Source: Candidatus Krumholzibacteriota bacterium | GTDB lineage: Bacteria; Krumholzibacteriota; Krumholzibacteriia; Krumholzibacteriales; WJIX01 | DNA: 64,000 nt | Assembly (NCBI GenBank): GCA_034520215.1 | Contig: JAXHNR010000001.1 | Span: 310,001 to 374,000 of the forward strand | Direction of reading: 5' to 3' | Shown: one piece after another, positions 5,939 to 50,271 of the stretch | Layout: each line of letters starts with the position of its first letter | Position numbering within the stretch: position 1 is the first letter of the stretch | Notes under the pieces: generated by a model | The model's input: the letters and a program-made list of their open reading frames with translations, nothing else | Told to the model about the DNA's origin: nothing | The model's database searches: none | Position numbers and translations under genes: made by a program

Positions 5939-6292
5939 TTGACAAAGATTGCGCCGAAGAAACTTGCCAAAAGAGTCATAAAGCTTATATGGAATAAGAA
6001 AGCTGATGATATAGTTCTTCTTAATCTGAAAAAGGTTTCGAACATAGCGGATTATTTTGTGATTTGTTCCGTTTCAAGCGGCACTCAGGCTCGTGTCGTC
6101 GCAGATGTCGTTACCGAGGAGTTGAAGAAAAAAGGCATTTCATTCAATGTTGAAGGATATCAGTCTCCCCACTGGATATTAATAGATAGTTTTAATGTTG
6201 TGCTTCATGTTTTTCAGCCGGAGACGAGGGGTTTCTACGGACTTGAAAAGTTTTGGGGAGACGCGCCCAGGGAGGAATATCCGGATGGTTAA
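5939..6292 (+). CDS. rsfS: Ribosomal silencing factor RsfS
   Basis: Small protein (117 residues) that binds ribosomal protein L14 and blocks subunit joining when nutrients are short. The family signature appears as DIVLLNLKKVSNIADYFVICS near residues 20-45 and the HWILIDSFNVVLHVF segment near 80. The start is TTG at 5939, directly after the previous stop, with GGAG 6 bases upstream. It overlaps argS by 8 bases. In many bacteria rsfS sits with nadD; here it is linked to argS instead. Confidence 0.95.
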   Translation: MTKIAPKKLAKRVIKLIWNKKADDIVLLNLKKVSNIADYFVICSVSSGTQARVVADVVTEELKKKGISFNVEGYQSPHWILIDSFNVVLHVFQPETRGFYGLEKFWGDAPREEYPDG

Positions 6293-7967
6293 GAAGGCGG
6301 GTTTTGAGGATGTAAGGGTCAGAGAGAGAATAACCGAAATGCTCTTTGAATCGGTAAAGCAACTTGACCTTGACATTGAAAGAGATGAAATTCAGCTCGA
6401 ACGGCCGAAGGAACTCGGCAATGGTGATTTAAGCAGTAATATTGCCCTGGTTACAGCCGGAAAGATAAAGAGTAATCCAAGAAAACTTGCTGAAATCATT
6501 ATTGATAAAATTTCATCAGATCCTGATTTTATAAGTGGAATTGAAGTAGCAGGGCCGGGGTTTATAAATTTTTTCTTTTCCGTTAATTACCTTAAATACC
6601 AGGTGTTAAAAATAAACAGAGAACAAGAGTCGTACGGCAATCTGGATATTGGAAAGGGAAAAAAGGTACAGATAGAATTCGTTTCCGCGAATCCAACGGG
6701 ACCGCTTGTACTTGTTTCAGCCAGAGCCGCCGCCGTTGGAAGTACTCTTGTCCGTTTGTACAGTAAAGCGGGATTTGAAGTTGATGCTGAATACTATCTT
6801 AACGATTCCGGAAATCAGGTCCACAAACTGGGGCTTTCTCTTATGGCCAGATTCAGACAGAACTTCGGAGAGGATGCCAAGATACCTGAGGATGGATATC
6901 CCGGTGAGTATTTGATAGAGATCGCGAGGCAGGTTCCTAAGCGTGAAGGAATGGAGTGGCTGGGCTTAGAGGATGACAGGGGGGCCGCAAAATTCGCCGA
7001 TTTCGCGCTTGAAAGAATGGTGGAACTGATAAAAAAAGACTTGGAAGTTTTCGGGGTTTCCTTCGATCAATTCTTCGCCGAATCAACTCTTCATCGGGCA
7101 GAGGGGGAAGTTGATCAAGCCCTTGAAATCATGAAAGATAATGGTTTTGTCTATGAAAATGATGACGCTCTCTGGTTTCGTTCAACTGATTTCGGGGATG
7201 AGAAGGACAGAGTTGTAATTCGAAGTGATAAAAGCCCGACTTATTTTCTGGCCGACGCGGCATACCATCTCAATAAGTTTCGGCGGGGCTATGATCGAGT
7301 AATTGACATATTCGGACCTGATCATCACGGACACATACAGAGATTGAAGGCCGCTTCTTCCGTCTTCGGAGCTAAAGAAGATTGGCTTGAGATTCTCACC
7401 GTTCAGTGGGTCCGTCTCATAGAAGAAGGTAAAGAAATCAGTATGTCCAAGCGCAGGGGCGAATATATCACTCTCAATGATCTTATCTCAGATGTCGGAA
7501 GGGACGCGGCTAAATTCTTTTTTCTTATGAGAAAGAATAACGCTCATATGGATTTTGATCTATCCCTGGCCAGAAAGAGATCTGATGAAAATCCTGTTTA
7601 TTATGTTCAATACGCCCACGCGAGGATATCAAGCGTTATATCTTTCGCGAAAGAGAATGATGTCGAATTCCCCGAAGATTTTGATTGTGTAGAATTGCTT
7701 GATGAACCGGAAGAGTTGGATTTGATCCGTAAGCTTATTGTGTTCCCCCAGCTTGTCGAGGGGGCTGTTCTAATGAACGATCCAAATCGCCTGACAACCT
7801 ACACGAGGGAGATTGCCTCCTCCTTTCACCATTTCTATCATATCTGCAGGATTATTTCAGATAACAACAGATTGAGTCAGGCCCGGTTATTGCTCTCGGA
7901 GGCAACGAGAATAGTTCTGGCTGAATCGTTGAGGTTAATTGGAGTTGCCGCTCCCCGGAAAATGTAA
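6285..7967 (+). CDS. argS: Arginyl-tRNA synthetase with altered HIGH signature
   Basis: Class I synthetase that charges tRNA-Arg. With ATG 6285 (GGAGG 9 bases upstream) it has 560 residues, the normal length. The order is N-terminal Add-1 domain (1-110), catalytic core with SANPTGP at 134-140, and a C-terminal anticodon domain starting near YYVQYAHARI. The usual HxGH after TGPL is replaced by VLVS (residues 142-145, bases 6708-6719), read directly from sequence. The KMSKS equivalent is SMSKR at 386-390. Everything else is well preserved, so it is probably functional rather than a pseudogene. It overlaps rsfS by 8 bases. Confidence 0.95.
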   Translation: MVKKAGFEDVRVRERITEMLFESVKQLDLDIERDEIQLERPKELGNGDLSSNIALVTAGKIKSNPRKLAEIIIDKISSDPDFISGIEVAGPGFINFFFSVNYLKYQVLKINREQESYGNLDIGKGKKVQIEFVSANPTGPLVLVSARAAAVGSTLVRLYSKAGFEVDAEYYLNDSGNQVHKLGLSLMARFRQNFGEDAKIPEDGYPGEYLIEIARQVPKREGMEWLGLEDDRGAAKFADFALERMVELIKKDLEVFGVSFDQFFAESTLHRAEGEVDQALEIMKDNGFVYENDDALWFRSTDFGDEKDRVVIRSDKSPTYFLADAAYHLNKFRRGYDRVIDIFGPDHHGHIQRLKAASSVFGAKEDWLEILTVQWVRLIEEGKEISMSKRRGEYITLNDLISDVGRDAAKFFFLMRKNNAHMDFDLSLARKRSDENPVYYVQYAHARISSVISFAKENDVEFPEDFDCVELLDEPEELDLIRKLIVFPQLVEGAVLMNDPNRLTTYTREIASSFHHFYHICRIISDNNRLSQARLLLSEATRIVLAESLRLIGVAAPRKM

Positions 7968-15696: not shown

Positions 15697-17610
15697 ATGA
15701 TTATTCCTCCAGATATGGAAACGTGGTATAGCCGGTTCTTAAGTGGCAGGGGGGACGTTGTCGATTCCCTTAATTCTTTTTTAGGGGAAGACAGCGGCGC
15801 GCGTACCAGAGACGGAGCCTGGGCCGCGTTTATATTATCACGGATATATTTTGTACAGGGAAAACTTGATCTAGCTCAATCTTACCTTCGAAGATCCTTT
15901 AGAATATTCTATTCTCTTAAGGAAAATGAATATCCTCTGGGTTTATGGGTCAACAGGGCATTGATATTAAAACACAGGGGTGAATATTCAAGAGCTTCGA
16001 AACTCCTTAGAGCAGTTTGCAGGCTTTCATTAAGAAGGAGACATGTGCTAAGCGCGGCTAAGGCCTCCTCTAATCTCGCTTCAATTCTGGCAAGGAGGGG
16101 TTCACTGGAAGAATCCCGTGCGTATCTGAATCTTGCCGAAAATATTTATAATGCCTTGGGAAGAGAGAAAGAAAATCTATCCCTCACGCTCACGCGGTCG
16201 GTTCTTGATATAAGAAGAGAACTATTGTCAAAGGCGAAAGATAATATTTGCGAGGTTCTCTTTCAATCAGAAGGGCCGGAATTTAATCGCGAACGGCTCA
16301 CAGCCGGGTTTCTTCTCGCGGAAATTTTTATCAGGCGTGACGAGACGGCCGCGGCGCTTAATATTCTCGAGAATATAGCTGAAGATATAGAGGGTCTTGA
16401 GAAATTTCCATCCAAGAAGATGATATATTACTATCTATATTCTCTTTTAGCCTGCCGCAGGGGAAATGATGATAAGAAGAATAAATACTATGAAAAAGGA
16501 GAGAGATTAAGGAAAGAACTTGGTATAGCACGGCCAGGCAAATGGTTGCCCGGCTCGGAGAAAGATCTCCTTCCTCCTGCGCGTGAGAAAAAGAGGGCTG
16601 TAGAAGAAGAGACAATCGCTGAAAGAGAATCACTTTATATATGCGGAAATACTATGAGTAGAAACGGAACCGCGGAGAATGAATTTATTACGGTCAATAA
16701 TAGGATGAAAAATCTCCTTGAAAGGATAAAGGGTGTTTCCGGCACACCTCTTCCGATTCTTCTCTGCGGGAATACGGGAACGGGGAAAGATCTTATAGCA
16801 GGTATGATACATAAATGGAGCGGAAGGAGTGACAAGCCGTTTATTCCAGTTAATGTTACGGCGCTGGCGCCCTCACTATTTGAAAGCAGTCTTTTCGGAC
16901 ACGTGAAGGGAGCTTTTACGGGTGCTGTAAAGCTGAATAAAGGTTTTGTGGAAGCTTCCGGCGACGGGACCATATTCTTAGATGAAATCGGTGAATTAAG
17001 GGCGGATTTACAGGCTAAACTCCTGCGTTACCTTGACAGCGGGGAATATCTTGTTGTGGGGGGTTCAGAGGTTAAAAGGGGAACTGCCAGAATTATTGCC
17101 GCGACGAATAAAGATCTTGAATCCGCGATTGAGAAAGGAACCTTCCGTATAGATCTCTATCATAGATTAAACGTGTTCAATTTCATGATTCCTTCGCTCA
17201 AAGAGAGGAAGAATGATATTAAAATTATGGCTGAATATTTTATTAGAAAAGCTTGCGGTGAATTTAATATTTCCAGGGCCGGGTTAACCAAAAACGCATG
17301 TGATGTACTTAAGCGGTATTCCTGGCCGGGAAATGTAAGGGAATTACAAAATGAGGTATTAAAAGCATTATTTAATTCGCGGTCAGGTGTTATCAGGGCT
17401 TCGGATTTTTCGGCTCGTATCCTGACAGAGTTGGTAATGCCGAATAAATCTGAAGAATCTTCCCTGGATAACCGTATCGCGGCAATGGAAAGAAGGGAAA
17501 TTCTCAAGGCTCTGCGCGAAGCGGGGGGTAACCGTTCCATGGCAGCCAGAATTCTGGGGCTTGAGAGAACTACTCTTATATACAGGATAAAGAGGTATGG
17601 TCTGAATTAG
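15697..17610 (+). CDS. Sigma-54-dependent activator with N-terminal TPR domain
   Basis: Bacterial enhancer-binding protein of 637 residues. The N-terminal half (about 1-270) is a chain of TPR-like helical hairpins with no receiver or GAF domain. The AAA+ domain follows a linker: Walker A GNTGTGKD, loop GAFTGA at 405-410 (intact), Walker B GTIFLDEIGE. A Fis-type helix-turn-helix closes the protein (GNRSMAARILGLERTTL). It therefore should open sigma-54 promoters, with TPR-mediated partner or ligand binding as input. A ribosome site (AGAGGAG) precedes ATG 15697. It converges with the adenosine-specific kinase gene, with 9 bases between stops. Confidence 0.93.
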   Translation: MIIPPDMETWYSRFLSGRGDVVDSLNSFLGEDSGARTRDGAWAAFILSRIYFVQGKLDLAQSYLRRSFRIFYSLKENEYPLGLWVNRALILKHRGEYSRASKLLRAVCRLSLRRRHVLSAAKASSNLASILARRGSLEESRAYLNLAENIYNALGREKENLSLTLTRSVLDIRRELLSKAKDNICEVLFQSEGPEFNRERLTAGFLLAEIFIRRDETAAALNILENIAEDIEGLEKFPSKKMIYYYLYSLLACRRGNDDKKNKYYEKGERLRKELGIARPGKWLPGSEKDLLPPAREKKRAVEEETIAERESLYICGNTMSRNGTAENEFITVNNRMKNLLERIKGVSGTPLPILLCGNTGTGKDLIAGMIHKWSGRSDKPFIPVNVTALAPSLFESSLFGHVKGAFTGAVKLNKGFVEASGDGTIFLDEIGELRADLQAKLLRYLDSGEYLVVGGSEVKRGTARIIAATNKDLESAIEKGTFRIDLYHRLNVFNFMIPSLKERKNDIKIMAEYFIRKACGEFNISRAGLTKNACDVLKRYSWPGNVRELQNEVLKALFNSRSGVIRASDFSARILTELVMPNKSEESSLDNRIAAMERREILKALREAGGNRSMAARILGLERTTLIYRIKRYGLN

Positions 17611-18137: not shown

Positions 18138-19781
18138 TTAACGATTAATATTATACTCGTTTATCTTGTTATGCAGGTGCTGCCGTGAGACCTTCAAAAG
18201 TTCCGCGGCCTTTGTAACTTTGCCTCCTGTTTTGGATAAAGTATCTTCTATTATTTTTTTCTCGGCGGATTTAATGCCCTGTTTAAGTGAATATATTTCT
18301 CTGTTCCCCGTTTTCATTCCCATCTCTCCTGTAAAAAACTGGGGAAAATGTTCTTTATTCAGTGTTTTGGAATCTCCGCTCAGCGCCAGCGCTCTCTCAA
18401 TGCTGTTCTCAAGCTCACGAACATTCCCGGGCCACTGATAGGAAAGGAAAAGCTTTGTTACTTCAGGGGAAATACTTACTTCACCTTTTTTCATTTTCTT
18501 TGAGTATTTGTCAAGAAAATGAACAACCAATGGGAGGATATCTTCCTGCCTGTCACGAAGAGGAGGTATTGTAATGGGGACTACATTCAATCTGTAAAAG
18601 AGGTCGCGTCTAAAACCCCCCTTTTCGGCGTGCGCTTCAAGATTTCTGTTCGTAGCGGCTATTATCCTGACATTTACTTTACGTGTCAGATTTTCACCCA
18701 CTCTCCTTATTTCTCCTTCCTGAAGAGTTCTCAATAGTTTGACCTGGAGTGTTTCGGGCATGTCGCCTATCTCGTCAAGGAATATCGTTCCCCCGCTGGC
18801 TGTTTCAAAGAGTCCGGGTTTGTCGTTTGAGGCTCCCGTGAAAGAACCTTTTTTATGTCCGAAGAGTTCACTTTCGAGCAATTCCGCCGGCATGGCGCTG
18901 CAGTTGATAGTAACCAGTTCATTGTCTTTTCTCTTACTGTTATAATGGATTGCTTTTGCTATGAGTTCTTTTCCGGTTCCTGTTGAACCTGTGATCAGAA
19001 CTGTTGTGTCAAATAAAGCTATCTTTTTGATTGTGCTGAATATGTCGAGCATGGATTTGCTTTTGCCGATAATTCCCGAAAATTCATATTTATCTGAGAG
19101 TTCCTGTTTTAATTTTCTGTTTTCCCTGGCAAGATCTTCCTTCGATAGGATCAGCGCCCCGTGTAGACGCGCGTTCTCTATCGCTATCGCGGCCTGCGAG
19201 GAAAAGGCTGATACTATCGATATATCATCTTCAGTTATATCTCCTGATAGCCTGCTGGCATCTGTATAGATAACACCTATAATTCTGTTATCAAGTTTCA
19301 GAGGTACACAGATTGCCGTTCTTAGCTGCAGATCGATAACGCTTTCTTTTTTGGCGAACTGCTCGTTTTCCATAAGATCAGAGATAAAAAGTGGTGTGCC
19401 CTTCTGCGTAACTTCATTGATAATACTGTAGCTTACTTCAAAATCTCTTTCTTCGAGGGATTGCTCATTTTTATCCCTGGCGATCCTGAATTTCATTTCC
19501 CCCTTGTTGTCCGCGAGCATAAGAAAACCTCTATCGGTATCCGCGAGATTTATTATTGAATCTATAATCTTGGCGAGCAGTTCATTCAGATTCAGGGTGG
19601 AATTCAATGCCTTTGTAACGTTGATAAGTATTTCAAGTTTGTTGATCCTGTGCCGGCTTTTTTCCAGTTCCTCCGAATCACGTGCTTGAGTTTTAGCTTT
19701 TTCGGATTTCTTTAGGCTATCGATACTCTTCTGGGCCTCAGAGAAGAAATCGCCCGATTTCTTGTTTTCTCCGTTTTTCAT
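18138..19781 (-). CDS. Sigma-54-dependent activator with GAF domain, GSFTGA loop
   Basis: Enhancer-binding protein of about 547 residues from ATG 19781. Order: a charged coiled-coil segment (about 1-45), a GAF domain (about 50-205, with ICVPLKLDNRIIGVIYTD), AAA+ domain with Walker A GSTGTGKE and Walker B GTIFLDEIGD, and a Fis-type HTH (GGKVTKAAELLKVSRQHL). The sigma-54 contact loop is GSFTGA (312-317) instead of GAFTGA, a conservative change. The frame continues upstream to 19871, but those 30 residues look unlike protein; ATG 19781 has only a weak ribosome site, so the start is uncertain. The GAF input could bind a small molecule. Confidence 0.92.
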   Translation of the reverse strand: MKNGENKKSGDFFSEAQKSIDSLKKSEKAKTQARDSEELEKSRHRINKLEILINVTKALNSTLNLNELLAKIIDSIINLADTDRGFLMLADNKGEMKFRIARDKNEQSLEERDFEVSYSIINEVTQKGTPLFISDLMENEQFAKKESVIDLQLRTAICVPLKLDNRIIGVIYTDASRLSGDITEDDISIVSAFSSQAAIAIENARLHGALILSKEDLARENRKLKQELSDKYEFSGIIGKSKSMLDIFSTIKKIALFDTTVLITGSTGTGKELIAKAIHYNSKRKDNELVTINCSAMPAELLESELFGHKKGSFTGASNDKPGLFETASGGTIFLDEIGDMPETLQVKLLRTLQEGEIRRVGENLTRKVNVRIIAATNRNLEAHAEKGGFRRDLFYRLNVVPITIPPLRDRQEDILPLVVHFLDKYSKKMKKGEVSISPEVTKLFLSYQWPGNVRELENSIERALALSGDSKTLNKEHFPQFFTGEMGMKTGNREIYSLKQGIKSAEKKIIEDTLSKTGGKVTKAAELLKVSRQHLHNKINEYNINR

Positions 19782-20215
19782 ATTCTTCTTGGTTGAACTG
19801 CTAAAAAGGAAAACTATCTTAATAACTTTATATTTACTATTTACTTTACATCCCTGAAGCTGGACGGTCAATTTAAAATCTTCTCCAGATAGGTGAATTG
19901 GTATGTTTTACTTTACAATTGTATTTGCACAGAGACCGTACAGCTGGACACTTCATTGCGGCGCGATGATAGTAAGATCCTTTTACAGCGCGGGGCTAAT
20001 TATATAATAGATTATAACTTATAATATTTTTCAGTAAGAATCATTCTTATAGGCATATATTTTGTTGTGTAATTTATATGAGGTGATGATATGAATTATT
20101 TTCCCATTGATCCCGACGATCCCTTTATCCTTTGATAAGAGTTGTAATGTAAGCGTAAATATTCCGGGCAATTTTGCAAAGGTGCTTTTTTCTCTCTATA
20201 GTATACGCAGACTTT
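19782..20215. other. Intergenic stretch between divergent regulatory genes
   Basis: AT-rich spacer upstream of the GAF activator. I see no gene of normal size. One 14-codon frame, MNYFPIDPDDPFIL (20091-20135, + strand), has a good Shine-Dalgarno sequence (GAGGTG, 5 bases before ATG), but nothing else supports it. Promoter elements for the leftward activator must lie here but I could not assign them. Confidence 0.5.
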
Positions 20216-21261: not shown

Positions 21262-23715
21262 ATGTTGAATATAAAGGATACTATAAATAGATTGCTCGAT
21301 TCAGTTGCGGAAAACTCCGGGCGGGGATATTATAAACAGGCCTATCTGTATGCCAGAGAAGCTCTCGGGCTTGTAAATCTAGTTTCCGAAGACAGAGAAA
21401 CAGTCTGCCGGGTGTATATTTCATCCGCTAAGAGTGCGTATTATATGTCCCGTTTTGAGGAAAGTGAGAACAATCTTGTAAAACTCGAGGCTTTACTGAA
21501 AGAAGAAAGAGCATGCGATAAAGATTATAGAAGTCAAATATCAATTATCAGGGCTGATATACTTAGAAGAAAGGGTAATTATAGTGAAGCAATAGGGTAT
21601 ATTGATCGATTTACTGCAGTTGACGGCGAAACCGTAGATCCGCGGTTTGCTGTCAGCAGGTTCATGATCAGAGGAGCCTGCCTGATGAGGTTGGGACATA
21701 TTGATAAGGCCAGAAATCAGCTGGAGACGGCCCTTGGCCTCGCAAATCGTGCTTCCGATGATAAAGCTCGTTCTTCCGTACTCGCTACTCTGGGATTGCT
21801 TTCGGTGAGAATGGGGTTTCTTGACAATGCTGATAATTATTTAAAGCGCGCGACAAATATATACAGGGAAAAAGAAGATATCTACGGACAGTCGGCGGCT
21901 ATGCTGAACAGAGGAATAGTTAAGTATCACCTTGGAAAGTTTGATGATGCCGAAAGTAATATCAAACAGGCTGTTTCCGGATTTAAAGAATGCGATTGGA
22001 AGATCGGAATATGCCGCGCTCTCATTGCTCTGGGCAATAATGAAATAAGCCGCGAGAAATATAATTCAGCCTTTAAATTCTTTGAAAGGTCACAATCGAT
22101 CGCTGAAGCGAAAGGTTTTCTGAGAGAAAAAGCGCTGGTGTTTGGAGGTTTCGGACGGATATTCATGGAAGCGGAGGATTACACGAAAGCTCAGAACTTC
22201 TTCAGAAAAGCTCTCGCGATATCTTCAAAAAATTTCCCCGGAGGAGATGTTGAACTGGAACAGTTTATATCTATGGGTGAATTGTATTTGTCAAAGGGTG
22301 ATGAAAGAGGAGCTCTTGAGTTCTTTGAGAGAGCTCTGAAACTGTCAAGAACGATGAAGGCGAGAATGGAAGAAGGGATTATATGCAGAGGAATGGGGTT
22401 AGCGTTCTGCAATTTTGGAGATATAGAAAAAGCTGAAAAGTATTTCGAGAAGGCTGTTGAGATACTAAGAGCGGCGGGATACAATTTCGCGCTCGCGCGA
22501 ACGCAGATAAAATATTGCCGGGTCCTTTTCAAATATATAGCCGGCTTAGGAGACGGAAGTGGGAAAAGGGAGAGGATAGATAAGATATGGCGTCTTTTGA
22601 TAGAGGTTGAGCATCTTTCCTGCGGTATTCAGACCGATTTGTTAAAAGATAAAACAGATACGCTTCTTGAAGAGATTATCAAAATTAAGAACAGATTGCC
22701 GCTCAGGAAAGCTGAAATCAACAAAAGCGGCACTTTAGTCGAATTGCAGTTTGATCCCAAATACCTTGCTTACGGTGAATTGGTTTCTGTCTCAAAAACT
22801 ATGTTTGATGTTTATGACAGAGCGAGGTTTGCCGCCTCTTTTTCTACACCTGTACTTATTACCGGAGAGACCGGAACCGGCAAGGAGCTTATAGCAAAGC
22901 TGATTCATAGGCTGAGCGGCAGGGGTGATAAGAAAATTGTGACCGTTAACTGTTCAGCTGTTCCCGACCGTCTTTTTGAAAGTGAATTCTTCGGTCATAA
23001 AAAGGGATGCTTCACCGGAGCTCTTTCCGACCGCCGCGGGCTTTTTGAAGAAGCATCCGGCGGTTCAATCTTTCTTGATGAAATAGGTGAACTTACTGAA
23101 AATCAGCAGGCTAAGCTGCTGAGGGTTCTTCAGGAAAAAAAGATCAGGCGCGTGGGGGATAATGTCGAGAGAGAAATAGACGTAAGGTTTATATCAGCCA
23201 CAAATCAGATAATAGGAGATGATATTAAAGAAAGCTCTATGCGGGAGGATTTCTATTACCGTATCAATGAGGAAAGAATTTACCTTGCTCCTCTTAGAGA
23301 TAGAAAAGAAGATATAATTCCTCTGCTGACCTTCTGTCTGTCGGAAAACGGATATAGTAAAAATGGTAAAATCAGAATAGAGAAAGAAGCGCTGAGATGT
23401 ATTCAGCGATACCGGTGGCCCGGAAACGTCAGAGAATTTCTCGCTGTTGTCAAACGAGCCGGATATATATCGGGCGGCGGGATTATAACGGCGGATATGC
23501 TTCCTGACAGGGTGAAAGGGAGGGGGATCTTACAAAAATCAGCTTCTCAGAATATAAACTCCGGTAGTAATGATTCTGTAAAGAGAAGAAAACTGCTGAA
23601 TCTATTAAAGATATGTGACGGCAATAAAAGCGCTGTAGCAAGATGGCTCGGTATTTCCAGAAGCACACTTTACAAGCAGCTCAAACGGGCGGATCTTGAA
23701 AATCTAATCAGGTAG
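21262..23715 (+). CDS. Sigma-54-dependent activator with long TPR array, GCFTGA loop
   Basis: Protein of 817 residues. About ten TPR-like repeats fill residues 15-420 (repeated patterns such as AxxxLGxLSVRMGFLDNAxxYLKRA and GDIEKAEKYFEKAVEIL). The AAA+ domain follows: Walker A GETGTGKE, Walker B GSIFLDEIGE, and a Fis-type HTH at the end (GNKSAVARWLGISRSTL). The loop reads GCFTGA at 582-587, so alanine is replaced by cysteine. No receiver domain is present, so input must come through the TPRs, which in other regulators bind peptides or proteins. ATG 21262 follows the small secreted protein by 16 bases. A weak terminator lies at 23757. Confidence 0.93.
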   Translation: MLNIKDTINRLLDSVAENSGRGYYKQAYLYAREALGLVNLVSEDRETVCRVYISSAKSAYYMSRFEESENNLVKLEALLKEERACDKDYRSQISIIRADILRRKGNYSEAIGYIDRFTAVDGETVDPRFAVSRFMIRGACLMRLGHIDKARNQLETALGLANRASDDKARSSVLATLGLLSVRMGFLDNADNYLKRATNIYREKEDIYGQSAAMLNRGIVKYHLGKFDDAESNIKQAVSGFKECDWKIGICRALIALGNNEISREKYNSAFKFFERSQSIAEAKGFLREKALVFGGFGRIFMEAEDYTKAQNFFRKALAISSKNFPGGDVELEQFISMGELYLSKGDERGALEFFERALKLSRTMKARMEEGIICRGMGLAFCNFGDIEKAEKYFEKAVEILRAAGYNFALARTQIKYCRVLFKYIAGLGDGSGKRERIDKIWRLLIEVEHLSCGIQTDLLKDKTDTLLEEIIKIKNRLPLRKAEINKSGTLVELQFDPKYLAYGELVSVSKTMFDVYDRARFAASFSTPVLITGETGTGKELIAKLIHRLSGRGDKKIVTVNCSAVPDRLFESEFFGHKKGCFTGALSDRRGLFEEASGGSIFLDEIGELTENQQAKLLRVLQEKKIRRVGDNVEREIDVRFISATNQIIGDDIKESSMREDFYYRINEERIYLAPLRDRKEDIIPLLTFCLSENGYSKNGKIRIEKEALRCIQRYRWPGNVREFLAVVKRAGYISGGGIITADMLPDRVKGRGILQKSASQNINSGSNDSVKRRKLLNLLKICDGNKSAVARWLGISRSTLYKQLKRADLENLIR

Positions 23716-28242: not shown

Positions 28243-29481
28243 ATGGATTCATGGGAGAGGGCGTATCTTAGCGATCAGTATAGAATGAATTTTACGTCGC
28301 GTGTTCGTCTTGTCGAAGAGGCCGATAAATCAAATAGCAGGGTATATCTTGAGAAAACTTATTTTTATCCTGTCTCGGGCGGTCAGCCTGATGACAGGGG
28401 CTCTCTCGGCGGCAATTCTGTGCTGGCTGTAAATGAGGATTCAAAGGGAGTGTCACACCTGATCGAGGGCAGGTTGAAAGAGGGTGAGGATGTTGAAGGT
28501 GTAATAGAAAAGGAACGAAGGTATGATCATATGAGACAGCATTCGGGGCAGCACCTTCTTTCAAGGGTATTTTTAGACATTCTCGATCTTGAAACTGTCG
28601 GATTTCATATTGGAGAGTCGGCGTCTACTATAGACCTTGACGGCAAAATGCCGTCCGCGGAAAACTTTAAGACCATCGAGCTTGAAGTAAATAAACTGAT
28701 AATGAAAAATATAGCGATTTCTGTAAATACTGTCTCACCCGGGGAATATAACAGATTGCGCGCTGATAGTAATTCCAAGTGTCCTTCGTGCTCGAAGATT
28801 TCCGAGAAAACTGAGGATATCAGGTTGGTAGAAATCGAGGGAGTCGATGTGAACCCCTGCTGCGGAACTCATGTTGCTAATACCGGTGAAATCGGTATTA
28901 TAAAGATAACAGGCATTAAGAGGGTCAATAAGAACAGCAGAATTGAGTTTCTCTGCGGTATGAGAGGTATGCGGGATTATATTGAAAAAGATTTACTGCT
29001 GAACTCAATAGCGCTCTCTTTTAGTACCGGGTGGAAAGAAGTGGGTAATATTGCGTGTAAACTTTCAGATGAAAATGCTAAGTTACGGGTCGAGAATAAG
29101 ACGTTAAATGATAAATTGAATGATTACAGAGCCAGGCAGCTTGCCGTTCCAGATAGTTCGGTTGGCGGATTCTCCATTGTGAAGAAGATAGTCGAGGATG
29201 CTGAGGTTTCGGATTTGAGGAATCTAGCCGGAGAAATAAGGAAAAACAATGATATTATAATTCTTCTCGGCAGCCTGAAACCAAAGCCGGCGATTGTGTT
29301 TGCCTGCTCTGAGGGTGTTCCTCTTTCTATGGGAAGTGTTTTAAAAGAATCCGCTTCTGTTATGGGAGCTGGCGGAGGCGGGGGTGAAGATTTTGCTCAG
29401 GGGGGAGGAGGAAACGGTGATTTGCTGCGCGGCGCGCTCGATAAAGCTGAGGAATTAGTAAGAAAGGGATTGGGGCAATGA
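28243..29481 (+). CDS. AlaX-like tRNA-editing protein with DHHA1 domain
   Basis: Free-standing relative of the editing and C-terminal parts of alanyl-tRNA synthetase, 412 residues. The zinc site that hydrolyses misacylated (usually Ser- or Gly-) tRNA-Ala is visible as HSGQH (100-104) and CCGTH (206-210). The final third, with the glycine-rich GAGGGGGEDFAQGGGG, is a DHHA1 domain, as in long AlaX proteins. No aminoacylation domain is present. ATG 28243 follows a GAAGG site. Its stop overlaps the pcm start by four bases (ATGA), so the two are translationally coupled. Confidence 0.92.
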   Translation: MDSWERAYLSDQYRMNFTSRVRLVEEADKSNSRVYLEKTYFYPVSGGQPDDRGSLGGNSVLAVNEDSKGVSHLIEGRLKEGEDVEGVIEKERRYDHMRQHSGQHLLSRVFLDILDLETVGFHIGESASTIDLDGKMPSAENFKTIELEVNKLIMKNIAISVNTVSPGEYNRLRADSNSKCPSCSKISEKTEDIRLVEIEGVDVNPCCGTHVANTGEIGIIKITGIKRVNKNSRIEFLCGMRGMRDYIEKDLLLNSIALSFSTGWKEVGNIACKLSDENAKLRVENKTLNDKLNDYRARQLAVPDSSVGGFSIVKKIVEDAEVSDLRNLAGEIRKNNDIIILLGSLKPKPAIVFACSEGVPLSMGSVLKESASVMGAGGGGGEDFAQGGGGNGDLLRGALDKAEELVRKGLGQ

Positions 29482-44335: not shown

Positions 44336-45784
44336 TCAACCAGATACAGAAACAGGCGCATATTGACCGTTTCTGGAGTTTTCCTTTATTTCTGACGGGT
44401 CTATTCCGTGTTTTTTCATCTTATACCTTATAGTTCCCCGTTCTAACTCAAGAAGCCTGGCTGCAGCGGTTACATTGCCGCGGGTTTGCCTCAGAGCGGC
44501 AATAATAGTCGCTTTCTCTATCTCTCTCATAGGTGTTCCTCCAGGCGGAAGATCGATCTTTATAGTTCCCTTCTCTTGAGTGATGTCTATAGTTCTTTCT
44601 TTCTTTTCTGTCTTTAAGGGAAGGTCTTCCGCTCTGATCTGTCCGCCTGTATTCAGCAGTACGGCTCTTTCGATAATATTTATTAATTCACGGATATTAC
44701 CCGGCCAGCTGTATCGTTTGAGGATTTCAACAGCTTCATCTGTTAAAGCAATTTCCCCTTTTTTAAGGCGGGTTGAGAACTGCCCTGCGTAATATCTGGC
44801 TATCGGTTCGATGTCCTCTATTCTGTCCCTCAGAGGAGGAAGAGATATTTCTACCACATTCAGCCTGTAGAACAGGTCCGCTCTGAATCGTTTATTCTGT
44901 ACATCCTTTTTCAGGTTTCTATTCGTAGCCGATATAATCCGAAGGTCAACGGGAAGAAACTGAGTGCCGCTGACTCTTCTTATTGTCCTGGAGTCGAGGA
45001 ATTTAAGGAGTTTTGCCTGGAGTCTGTAATCGATTTCTCCTATCTCATCGAGGAATACCGTCCCTCCGTTAGCGCATTCGAACAGACCGATCTTTCTTTC
45101 TTTCGCGTCTGTAAAAGCCCCCATTTCATGCCCGAAGAATTCAGTTTCGAGAAGATTGCGGGGGATCGCCGCGCAGTTTATTTCTATGAAGGGGCCGTCC
45201 TTCCTGAGGCTCGACGTGTGTATCGCTTTGGCGATGGCGCCTTTGCCCGTCCCGTTTTCACCGGTTATCATAATTGAAGTGCTTTCACTTGAAGCGACTT
45301 TCTTAGCGGTATCTATTACATCCAGGATCGGCCTGCTGACGCCTATGATATTCTGAAAACCTTCAGGTTTTCTGTTGATTTTATCAATAGTCTGTTTTTT
45401 CTCCCGTTTTCCGACACCCTGGGCTATCTGCACAAGAAGTTGGTGGAGGTCTTTCCTGCTGTACGGTTTGAACAGAATATGGCGGGCGCTGAATTCAATG
45501 GCAGCTATGTCGCTTTTCCTGTAGTTGTCGGGTAAAAGAAGAAGGATCTGACTTTTTGAATATTGATCATGCCAGTCTGTAATGGCTGCGGCTGCTTCAG
45601 TCCGCTGCTCCTTTTGCCATGATTCAGGGACAGATAGGATCAACAACGGCGCGAAGGTCTTTCTTTTAGAGGCGGTAAAATCTTCTATAGAGGGAAATTC
45701 CTTAACTTTCCATCCGGCCTCGGCGCAGTCCGTAGCAATAGGACTATCCTTACCGGGGTTTATAATATCAACAACAAGATCCAT
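44336..45784 (-). CDS. Sigma-54-dependent activator with pseudo-receiver domain, GAFTDA loop
   Basis: Enhancer-binding protein of 482 residues with NtrC-like layout. The N-terminal 120 residues fold like a receiver and keep the KP pair (FKPYSRKDL near 105-113), but no phosphoacceptor aspartate is seen at the end of the third strand (LLILSVPESW). The AAA+ domain has Walker A GENGTGKG, Walker B GTVFLDEIGE and the loop GAFTDA (222-227), with the second glycine changed. A Fis-type HTH (GNVTAAARLLELERGTI) closes it. It is therefore probably not controlled by a histidine kinase. No kinase gene is adjacent. Confidence 0.93.
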   Translation of the reverse strand: MDLVVDIINPGKDSPIATDCAEAGWKVKEFPSIEDFTASKRKTFAPLLILSVPESWQKEQRTEAAAAITDWHDQYSKSQILLLLPDNYRKSDIAAIEFSARHILFKPYSRKDLHQLLVQIAQGVGKREKKQTIDKINRKPEGFQNIIGVSRPILDVIDTAKKVASSESTSIMITGENGTGKGAIAKAIHTSSLRKDGPFIEINCAAIPRNLLETEFFGHEMGAFTDAKERKIGLFECANGGTVFLDEIGEIDYRLQAKLLKFLDSRTIRRVSGTQFLPVDLRIISATNRNLKKDVQNKRFRADLFYRLNVVEISLPPLRDRIEDIEPIARYYAGQFSTRLKKGEIALTDEAVEILKRYSWPGNIRELINIIERAVLLNTGGQIRAEDLPLKTEKKERTIDITQEKGTIKIDLPPGGTPMREIEKATIIAALRQTRGNVTAAARLLELERGTIRYKMKKHGIDPSEIKENSRNGQYAPVSVSG

Positions 45785-48433: not shown

Positions 48434-48765
48434 ATTTTTATTGCCAATTGCTGAAGGTGTCGGAAATTTGACTGTTAAGTAAGAATCTCGAGTACCGAAT
48501 GTTACTTGGCAGAGAGGCTCAAAGTCAAGGAGATGCTGAAGGGGGCTGTCGGAAAACTGACAGTAAAATAATACTTTGTAGCAGGACATTCAATATAACT
48601 CAAAGTATATATTGCAGTTACACAGATAATTCAATTGTGGAATACCGGTTGCTTTATATTTAGAAAAGATATTAACGGTATGTTTATAGATAAATATGAA
48701 TATCGGGCGTAATGATCCGTGCCGCCCTTGAATATTATTTTTACATTTAGTTGAAGCGGTGTTCT
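48434..48765. other. Divergent intergenic region (PqqD-like / activator)
   Basis: AT-rich spacer between divergent genes. No hairpin, frame or promoter pair is convincing. Both genes should be driven from here. Confidence 0.35.
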
Positions 48766-50271
48766 ATGGACGCGAACAGGGTTATGGGGGAAATTGTACG
48801 GAGGCTCTGTGTTGTTTGCGGAGCCTCAGCAGCGCTTTTTACAATTTCACGTTCTGTTGAAGAGAGAAAGGTGATTCTCTTCAGGGAAAGATATGAGTCA
48901 AAAGATGAGTGTTACGGAGGTATTCTATTAGACCGGGGGTTAGAACGAAACGCAGTACAGAGTCTTCTTTTTTCTGCCTCTCAAATAGGACGGAACATAG
49001 AAGGAAAGATGGTCTCGCCTCAGAAACGCCCATTTTCCTTTTCGTATAACCCTGGGCGGTTCAGCGCTGTTCCTGGTTTGCCGCCCCGCTGGCGCGTATC
49101 TGTACGGGGAGGCGCCCCTCTTGTTTTTAGAGGAATAGCAGATGATCTTGATGTCGAAATATCTCTTGAGATCGGCAGAGAGCGCAGGACCGCCGATAAG
49201 GGTTGGGAAAATTCTGACCACCGATTCTGTTTCAACCTTATCGAAAAGGTTCTGCCCCTTCTTCATGTAAAGGATACCGAAGCGAATATACCTTTTGTAA
49301 GGACTGACAAAAAAAAATTATTCGATCCGCCTATTATTGGAAATTCAGAAATCATCAGATCTCTCAAGCAGCAGATTCAAAAAATAGCCCCGAGTGAACT
49401 GTCTGTGCTTATCGAAGGTGAAAGCGGTACTGGAAAGGAGGTAATAGCCCGCAATATTCATAGATTAAGCGGAAGAGCCTCCGGCCCTCTTGTTACGGTA
49501 AACTGTATGGAAGTGCAGCCTTCTCTGCTTCGCTCGGAACTCTTTGGACACGCGAGGGGAGCCTTTACGGGGGCGGTAGGGGAAAGAGCCGGGCTAGTTG
49601 AAAGCGCTGGGGGAGGTACGTTCTTCCTCGATGAGATAGGAGAGATGCCCGCTAATCTGCAGGCGGCTCTTCTGAGGGTAATTCAGGAAAGAGAGATAAG
49701 GAGGGTCGGTGAAAGCGGCAGAAGAAAAATAGATGTGAGGTTTATATTCGCCACGAACAGGAATCTTTCAAAGCTCGTAGAGGAGGGCGGCTTCAGGGCC
49801 GATCTGTTCTATCGCGTTTGCGGAACGAGGATAGTGGTCCCGCCGTTACGGGAAAGGAAGGAAGATATTTTACCGCTCGCTTCCTATTTTCTTAGTATAC
49901 AGGCGGAAAAGGAGAATGCTAGGCTATCCAGGCTTTCAGCATCCGCGGCGAATAGAATGTTGTCCTATAACTGGCCGGGGAATGTAAGAGAACTGGCGAA
50001 TGAAATGGAAAGAGCTTCTGTATTTAACGGAGAAAGCAGGATTATTCCCGAGGAAACACTTTCAGAAAAATTAAGTGTAAAGACCGCAGATAAAATGTCA
50101 GATACCTGTAAATACGCAAAGACACTTCCCGCCGCGATTATTAATCTGGAAAGAGAGATGATTTCGAATATACTGGAGAAGTTCGATGGTAACAGGTCAA
50201 AAAGCGCTGAGGTTCTGGGTATTTCCAGACAGGGCCTCTTGAACAAGATAAAGAAATACCGGCTAATGTGA
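48766..50271 (+). CDS. Sigma-54-dependent activator, short N-terminal sensor, intact GAFTGA
   Basis: Enhancer-binding protein of 501 residues. The N-terminal 190 residues show no receiver motif and no clear GAF match; they are of unknown type. The AAA+ domain has Walker A GESGTGKE, loop GAFTGA (265-270) and Walker B GTFFLDEIGE; the Fis-type HTH at the end reads GNRSKSAEVLGISRQGL. ATG 48766 and in-frame TTG 48751 are both possible, neither with a good ribosome site. It has the canonical loop, so classical sigma-54 activation is expected. Downstream, on the same strand, is a secreted protein gene with a separate promoter. Confidence 0.92.
   Translation: MDANRVMGEIVRRLCVVCGASAALFTISRSVEERKVILFRERYESKDECYGGILLDRGLERNAVQSLLFSASQIGRNIEGKMVSPQKRPFSFSYNPGRFSAVPGLPPRWRVSVRGGAPLVFRGIADDLDVEISLEIGRERRTADKGWENSDHRFCFNLIEKVLPLLHVKDTEANIPFVRTDKKKLFDPPIIGNSEIIRSLKQQIQKIAPSELSVLIEGESGTGKEVIARNIHRLSGRASGPLVTVNCMEVQPSLLRSELFGHARGAFTGAVGERAGLVESAGGGTFFLDEIGEMPANLQAALLRVIQEREIRRVGESGRRKIDVRFIFATNRNLSKLVEEGGFRADLFYRVCGTRIVVPPLRERKEDILPLASYFLSIQAEKENARLSRLSASAANRMLSYNWPGNVRELANEMERASVFNGESRIIPEETLSEKLSVKTADKMSDTCKYAKTLPAAIINLEREMISNILEKFDGNRSKSAEVLGISRQGLLNKIKKYRLM

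Follow-up and report, generated by a model that had tools for sequence, protein, structure and literature searches.

A HIGH-less arginyl-tRNA synthetase in Krumholzibacteriota and other bacterial phyla

The HIGH motif is taught as the defining and catalytically required signature of the class I aminoacyl-tRNA synthetases, and papers on annotation and on mechanism alike rely on it. What, then, is to be made of a synthetase gene from which the motif is missing? The gene in question, argS (6285..7967, + strand), lies in a 64,000-nucleotide stretch of DNA (here called the window) from Candidatus Krumholzibacteriota bacterium (assembly GCA_034520215.1, contig JAXHNR010000001.1, positions 310,001 to 374,000 of the forward strand) and encodes an arginyl-tRNA synthetase (ArgRS; arginine--tRNA ligase) of 560 amino acids. 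An earlier note on this DNA had reported VLVS in place of HIGH and offered two readings, namely that the lineage uses a variant active site or that a second ArgRS exists. As judged from sequence, the HIGH-less ArgRS is a real and conserved variant found throughout the phylum and in many others. Moreover, argS is very probably the working ArgRS of its genome, belonging to a widespread bacterial type whose ATP signature appears to have been rebuilt from H-x-G-H to [N/V]-x-V-[S/N].

The altered signature motif of argS

By direct reading, bases 6708-6719 (+ strand) are GTACTTGTTTCA, the codons GTA CTT GTT TCA, and encode V142-L143-V144-S145 directly after S-A-N-P-T-G-P-L, as the earlier note had stated. 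These residues align with the HIGH columns of other ArgRS, and H-I-G-H itself fills them in the Campylobacter jejuni ArgRS 3fnr, the best solved relative of the window enzyme by sequence and by fold. When the class I H-x-G-H signature was looked for in the argS product, both histidines and the glycine were thus found to be replaced. Despite this, homology and the remaining features still assign the product, at the level of sequence, to class I.

The remainder of the protein is that of an ordinary ArgRS. The open reading frame begins at an ATG at 6285 and stays open over its full length. Its product scores 407.1 bits against TIGR00456 (E 9.9e-122, profile 7-569 of 569), well above the equivalog cut-off of 261.65, and its catalytic domain was also matched in Pfam and NCBIfam profile searches. 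The ArgRS N-terminal domain PF03485 occupies residues 16-98 (6330..6578, +; E 2.6e-20, profile 3-85 of 85) and the DALR anticodon-binding domain PF05746 residues 441-560 (7605..7964, +; E 3e-30, 1-117 of 117). The KMSKS equivalent, S-M-S-K-R (7440..7454, +), reads intact, with M387, S388 and R390 of its loop conserved across the ArgRS compared, and E169, N173, D174, Q178, E266, Y320 and D324 in the arginine-pocket region are nearly invariant. The full-model and domain matches therefore bear out the further statement that SMSKR and the rest of the protein are intact and full length. Furthermore, the 12 codons around the motif, NPTGPLVLVSAR, specify N-P-T-G-P-L-V-L-V-S-A-R, which is retained in three congeners (L003-L005) and in one genome of the same family (L006). 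Over these 36 bases the four differ from the window by 6, 6, 8 and 9 nucleotides, respectively, and by no amino acid; purifying selection has therefore acted on VLVS.

Distribution, copy number and origin

The HIGH-less type was sought as the pattern N-P-T-G-P-x-x-x-V-x-[AG]-R in 387 genomes, 80 from the phylum and 307 from other phyla. It occurs in 72 of the former and in 40 of the latter, spread over 30 families, and the reversed control pattern matched nothing in the same sample. When Gly, too, was allowed at the third motif position, the pattern matched 230 of the 387 genomes, so that about half of the pattern-matched NPTGP-type ArgRS are HIGH-less in this sample, in which the window's own phylum is over-represented. 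The type is thus phylum-wide and reaches beyond. Relatives named Candidatus Latescibacterota appear among the homologues (L032, L033), and HIGH is absent from every Latescibacterota copy of this ArgRS type that was read. Outside the phylum, N-V-V-S or N-I-V-S is the commonest form of the motif, with V-I-V-S, V-V-V-Q, L-V-V-N, S-V-V-N and V-I-V-N being rarer. No viral contig carrying the motif was found, and the 68 records of plasmid-borne relatives are all less than 60% identical (best 44%). We found no description of a HIGH-less ArgRS in the open-access literature, though an earlier mention in subscription papers is possible.

The window's own genome (2.6 Mb in two contigs, 97.3% complete) contains a single match to PF00750, which is argS itself, and profile searches with PF00750 and TIGR00456 found no second ArgRS, canonical or otherwise, in it. 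The only other TIGR00456 match there (28 bits over 32 profile positions) falls in an 846-residue frame that, by its size and match, is most likely LeuRS. The PF00750 search was extended to 47 genomes, comprising 45 with the HIGH-less motif, the canonical G139 and G050; matches above the cut-off were obtained in 43 of the 47, and in none of the 45 did a separate second ArgRS-like gene exceed it. Surplus rows were fragments of the same frame or sub-threshold matches fitting LeuRS- or CysRS-sized frames. Three different queries retrieved no ArgRS from G050, which belongs to the phylum and has a reported completeness of 91%; this is probably an assembly gap.

These observations bear on two ways in which the altered motif might be explained away. 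That the HIGH codons were misread or misassembled, or belong to a pseudogene, would be suggested by the departure from the textbook motif and by nothing else. The earlier note had allowed for an error on re-reading, and error at these codons is excluded by the independent genomes that encode identical residues with synonymous differences only. With an open, full-length frame and a pattern shared by nine-tenths of the phylum genomes sampled, we give this explanation, pseudogene included, practically no chance. A subtler possibility is that the HIGH-less protein, a paralogue of ArgRS, serves some other purpose, for instance as a regulator or an aminoacyl-AMP enzyme, and leaves the charging of arginine to a second, canonical ArgRS. 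ArgS-related proteins lacking synthetase activity are indeed known as a class (the argS product also matches the NrtL model), and two Latescibacterota genomes carry an additional, distant ArgRS with HLGH or HVGH (L091 in G048, L092 in G055), the main copy of G055 reading TAVS. However, the proposed second enzyme is missing from the window's genome and from the HIGH-less genomes checked, and the HIGH-less ArgRS already stands alone in several one-contig genomes, such as G010, G136, G205 and G219. It also keeps all the domains of a charging enzyme, including KMSKR, the DALR domain and the arginine-pocket region. We therefore consider a paralogue with another role very improbable, and the earlier suggestion of a second ArgRS finds no support here. 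Sole-copy status and conservation together strongly imply that the HIGH-less ArgRS charges tRNA-Arg.

How often the type arose was addressed with a tree of 73 rows from which the motif and the co-varying columns had been left out. In a free quick search the HIGH-less label was scattered over 7 changes with weak support, and free quick trees require 5-7 changes of state in all. Holding all HIGH-less enzymes as one clade raised the log-likelihood 18.5 units above that of the free quick tree (approximately unbiased test, p-AU 0.71). The data are thus compatible with one origin, which is preferred over several because the single-clade constraint gives the better likelihood. Since a tree in which the canonical NPTGP-type forms a single clade is compatible with the data as well, loss of HIGH once and its retention or regain in the canonical group both fit. 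In one tree, a fully canonical enzyme with HVGH, GADH and QLV (L105, from G139) was placed among the HIGH-less without firm support, possibly through reversion or misplacement.

Linked changes and a possible catalytic arrangement

Residues were compared between 54 HIGH-less and 28 canonical NPTGP-type enzymes, numbered after the window ArgRS (P0001). Within the motif, position 144 is Val in all 54 HIGH-less enzymes and Gly (26) or Ala (2) in the canonical ones; position 145 is Ser, Asn, Gln or Ala as against His; and position 142 is mostly Asn or Val as against mostly His. Shortly after it, A148 (6726..6728, +) is Ala in 90% of the HIGH-less and Gly, Gln or Asn in the canonical type. The canonical GADHHGY has become G344-P345-D-H-H-G-H350 (7314..7334, +); 53 of the 54 HIGH-less enzymes have P345, whereas canonical enzymes mostly have Ala345 and all 26 with Gly144 lack the proline. 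Position 375, in the strand before the KMSKS loop (W375-V376-R377; 7407..7415, +), is Gln or Trp in 50 of 54, as against Leu, Met, Phe or Ile in all canonical enzymes. This strand co-varies with position 142, as does I249 (7029..7031, +), giving two versions of the enzyme. The first combines N142 with Q375 (32 of 33), N377 (33 of 33) and usually Q249, and the second, to which the window enzyme belongs, combines V142 with W375, R377 and I249. Two further positions are more often basic than in the canonical type, namely 270, where H270 (7092..7094, +) is a candidate compensating residue (78% versus 21%), and 350 (61% versus 7%). The earlier suggestion of a variant active site is thus supported by changes that accompany the motif across the phylum and reach other phyla too.

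Forms with a partly altered motif also exist. Two enzymes with TVAH (L136 and L141, from G143 and G166) have Ala for the HIGH glycine together with GPDH, and hence P345, and may represent a half-way form between the canonical and HIGH-less types. On a different branch of ArgRS, with SPNIAK, several genomes have Gly or Ser as the opening residue of HIGH, and SVSH occurs in one enzyme, so that on this branch, too, HIGH has been partly lost (L130 in G121, L124, L126, L127, L133, L058 and L066).

How might an ArgRS work without HIGH? We infer that this type can dispense with the histidine side chains at HIGH positions 1 and 4, and that, by analogy with a known isoleucyl enzyme discussed below, the helix tip is displaced and the pocket remodelled. 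The transition state would be stabilised by the KMSKR loop, by the N-terminus and backbone of helix alpha-1, and by the replaced residues. In the N-subtype, Asn142 with Gln375 and Asn377 would replace the histidine contacts; in the V-subtype, the one present in the window, that part would fall to Arg377, possibly assisted by His270 or His350, while Trp375 would pack at the place of the histidine and the adenine edge. If P345 and the 375-377 strand have moved the pocket, Val144 would clear the adenine ring, whose usual stacking partner is the HIGH glycine. Position 378, three residues after 375, aligns with residue 405 of 1f7u, the published backbone-bracket residue of ArgRS (PMC5919687), which would place 375-377 near the adenylate. 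In its full form, this proposal holds that the HIGH side chains are dispensed with across a whole branch of ArgRS, that ATP binds in a shifted pose, and that a second-shell network of positions 142, 249, 375 and 377, in two interchangeable versions, does the catalysis; to this we assign roughly even odds.

Several considerations weigh against a working ArgRS with a site rebuilt in this way. In class I enzymes the first histidine serves to stabilise the transition state, and several of them become about a thousand times slower when it is mutated; the glycine, for its part, is conserved because it makes room for adenine (PMC10485003). An AVGA mutant of full-length LeuRS is severely impaired; the small LeuRS urzyme tolerates the same mutation, and the cost of losing HIGH therefore depends on the rest of the protein (PMC10450160). 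The coupling between the motif and the linked positions is strong in counts and only suggestive once kinship is corrected for, because the kinship-independent comparisons on well-supported branches, at 1-4 per pair, are too few for significance (sign test). Those comparisons of co-varying pairs that are informative all point in the same direction, and none in the opposite one. Finally, an AlphaFold model of the window ArgRS, built from a five-sequence alignment, is poor at the site (mean predicted local distance difference test, pLDDT, of 64, and below 50 at residues 134-146). At this low confidence it would place a strand at 127-134 and a helix at 139-161, with VLVS in the first turns of the helix. 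Its best fold matches in the PDB are all ArgRS, and the model confirms only the ArgRS fold.

Precedents and implications

Partly degenerate HIGH motifs are familiar from working class I synthetases, including TxGN in TrpRS and HxGT or HxGG in GluRS. As in the HIGH-less ArgRS, other residues, Thr and Asn among them, can stand in for the histidines of these enzymes; unlike the window enzyme, which has Val at both places, they keep the glycine and, in most cases, some polar first residue. Similarly, the partial departures among ArgRS themselves (TVGH, TVAH, GVGH, SIGH and SVSH; L102, L136, L141, L124, L133 and L130) offer precedent, but all retain the fourth-position histidine that the HIGH-less type lacks. 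The canonical NPTGP-type enzyme of Campylobacter shares its domains, the SANPTGPL lead-in and a KMSKR with the window ArgRS, and differs in having HIGH, GADHHGY and QMV where the latter has VLVS, GPDHHGH and QWV. A total of 13 PDB sequences were matched; none of the three aligned is HIGH-less and, to our knowledge, neither is any of the remainder.

The closest published precedent is the GxHH of some IleRS2, in which HIGH positions 1 and 3 are swapped and the enzyme is still active (Brkic et al., 2023; PMC10485003). The motif tip there lies 1.7 A away from the adenosine, making room for the larger third residue (PMC10485003). In both IleRS2 (G/AxHH) and the HIGH-less ArgRS, positions 1 and 3 are naturally changed and the adenine-stacking glycine gives way to a larger residue, and the swapped motif of IleRS2 is likewise common and accommodated by its pocket. 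However, the third residue is His in IleRS2 and invariably Val in the HIGH-less ArgRS compared. Moreover, IleRS2 keeps a catalytic His and its activity has been measured, whereas the ArgRS motif is known here from sequence; the change in ArgRS is the larger because no histidine remains.

This precedent also suggests why the change might have arisen. The signature may have been favoured because it protects ArgRS from a natural inhibitor that mimics the adenylate, much as GxHH confers mupirocin hyper-resistance on IleRS2, where the bulky third residue blocks the drug and the shifted pocket keeps ATP (PMC10485003). Enlargement of the same motif position from Gly to Val would agree with such an origin. 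Yet we came across no such natural inhibitor of ArgRS, and whole phyla have the HIGH-less type as their one ArgRS instead of carrying it as an extra, drug-resistant copy, which leaves selection by a drug unlikely. As it addresses only why the change arose, this origin is compatible with a working ArgRS.

The genomic setting of argS is ordinary, the upstream frame of 117 amino acids (5939..6292, +), presumably a ribosome silencing factor RsfS from its sequence, overlapping the argS start by 8 bases. Elsewhere in the window, 28243-29481 encodes what appears by sequence to be a stand-alone, AlaX-like alanyl-tRNA editing protein. Five putative sigma-54 type enhancer-binding regulators, some with TPR or GAF-like N-terminal parts, lie at 15697-17610, 18138-19871 (-), 21262-23715, 44336-45784 (-) and 48751-50271.

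Should the proposed catalytic arrangement be true, this ArgRS would be the first known case of a class I synthetase family that works with neither histidine nor glycine in its signature motif. If this essential housekeeping enzyme is active, as its conservation as a sole copy implies, HIGH would be dispensable in ArgRS, and this across about 30 sampled families outside the phylum. The forms HxGH, TxGH, TxAH, NxVS and VxVS would then constitute a natural series of double and triple mutants for probing the role of HIGH, one that also bears on the proposal that the backbone, and not the side chains, carries much of early catalysis. The variant may, in addition, be relevant to drugs that mimic aminoacyl-adenylates.
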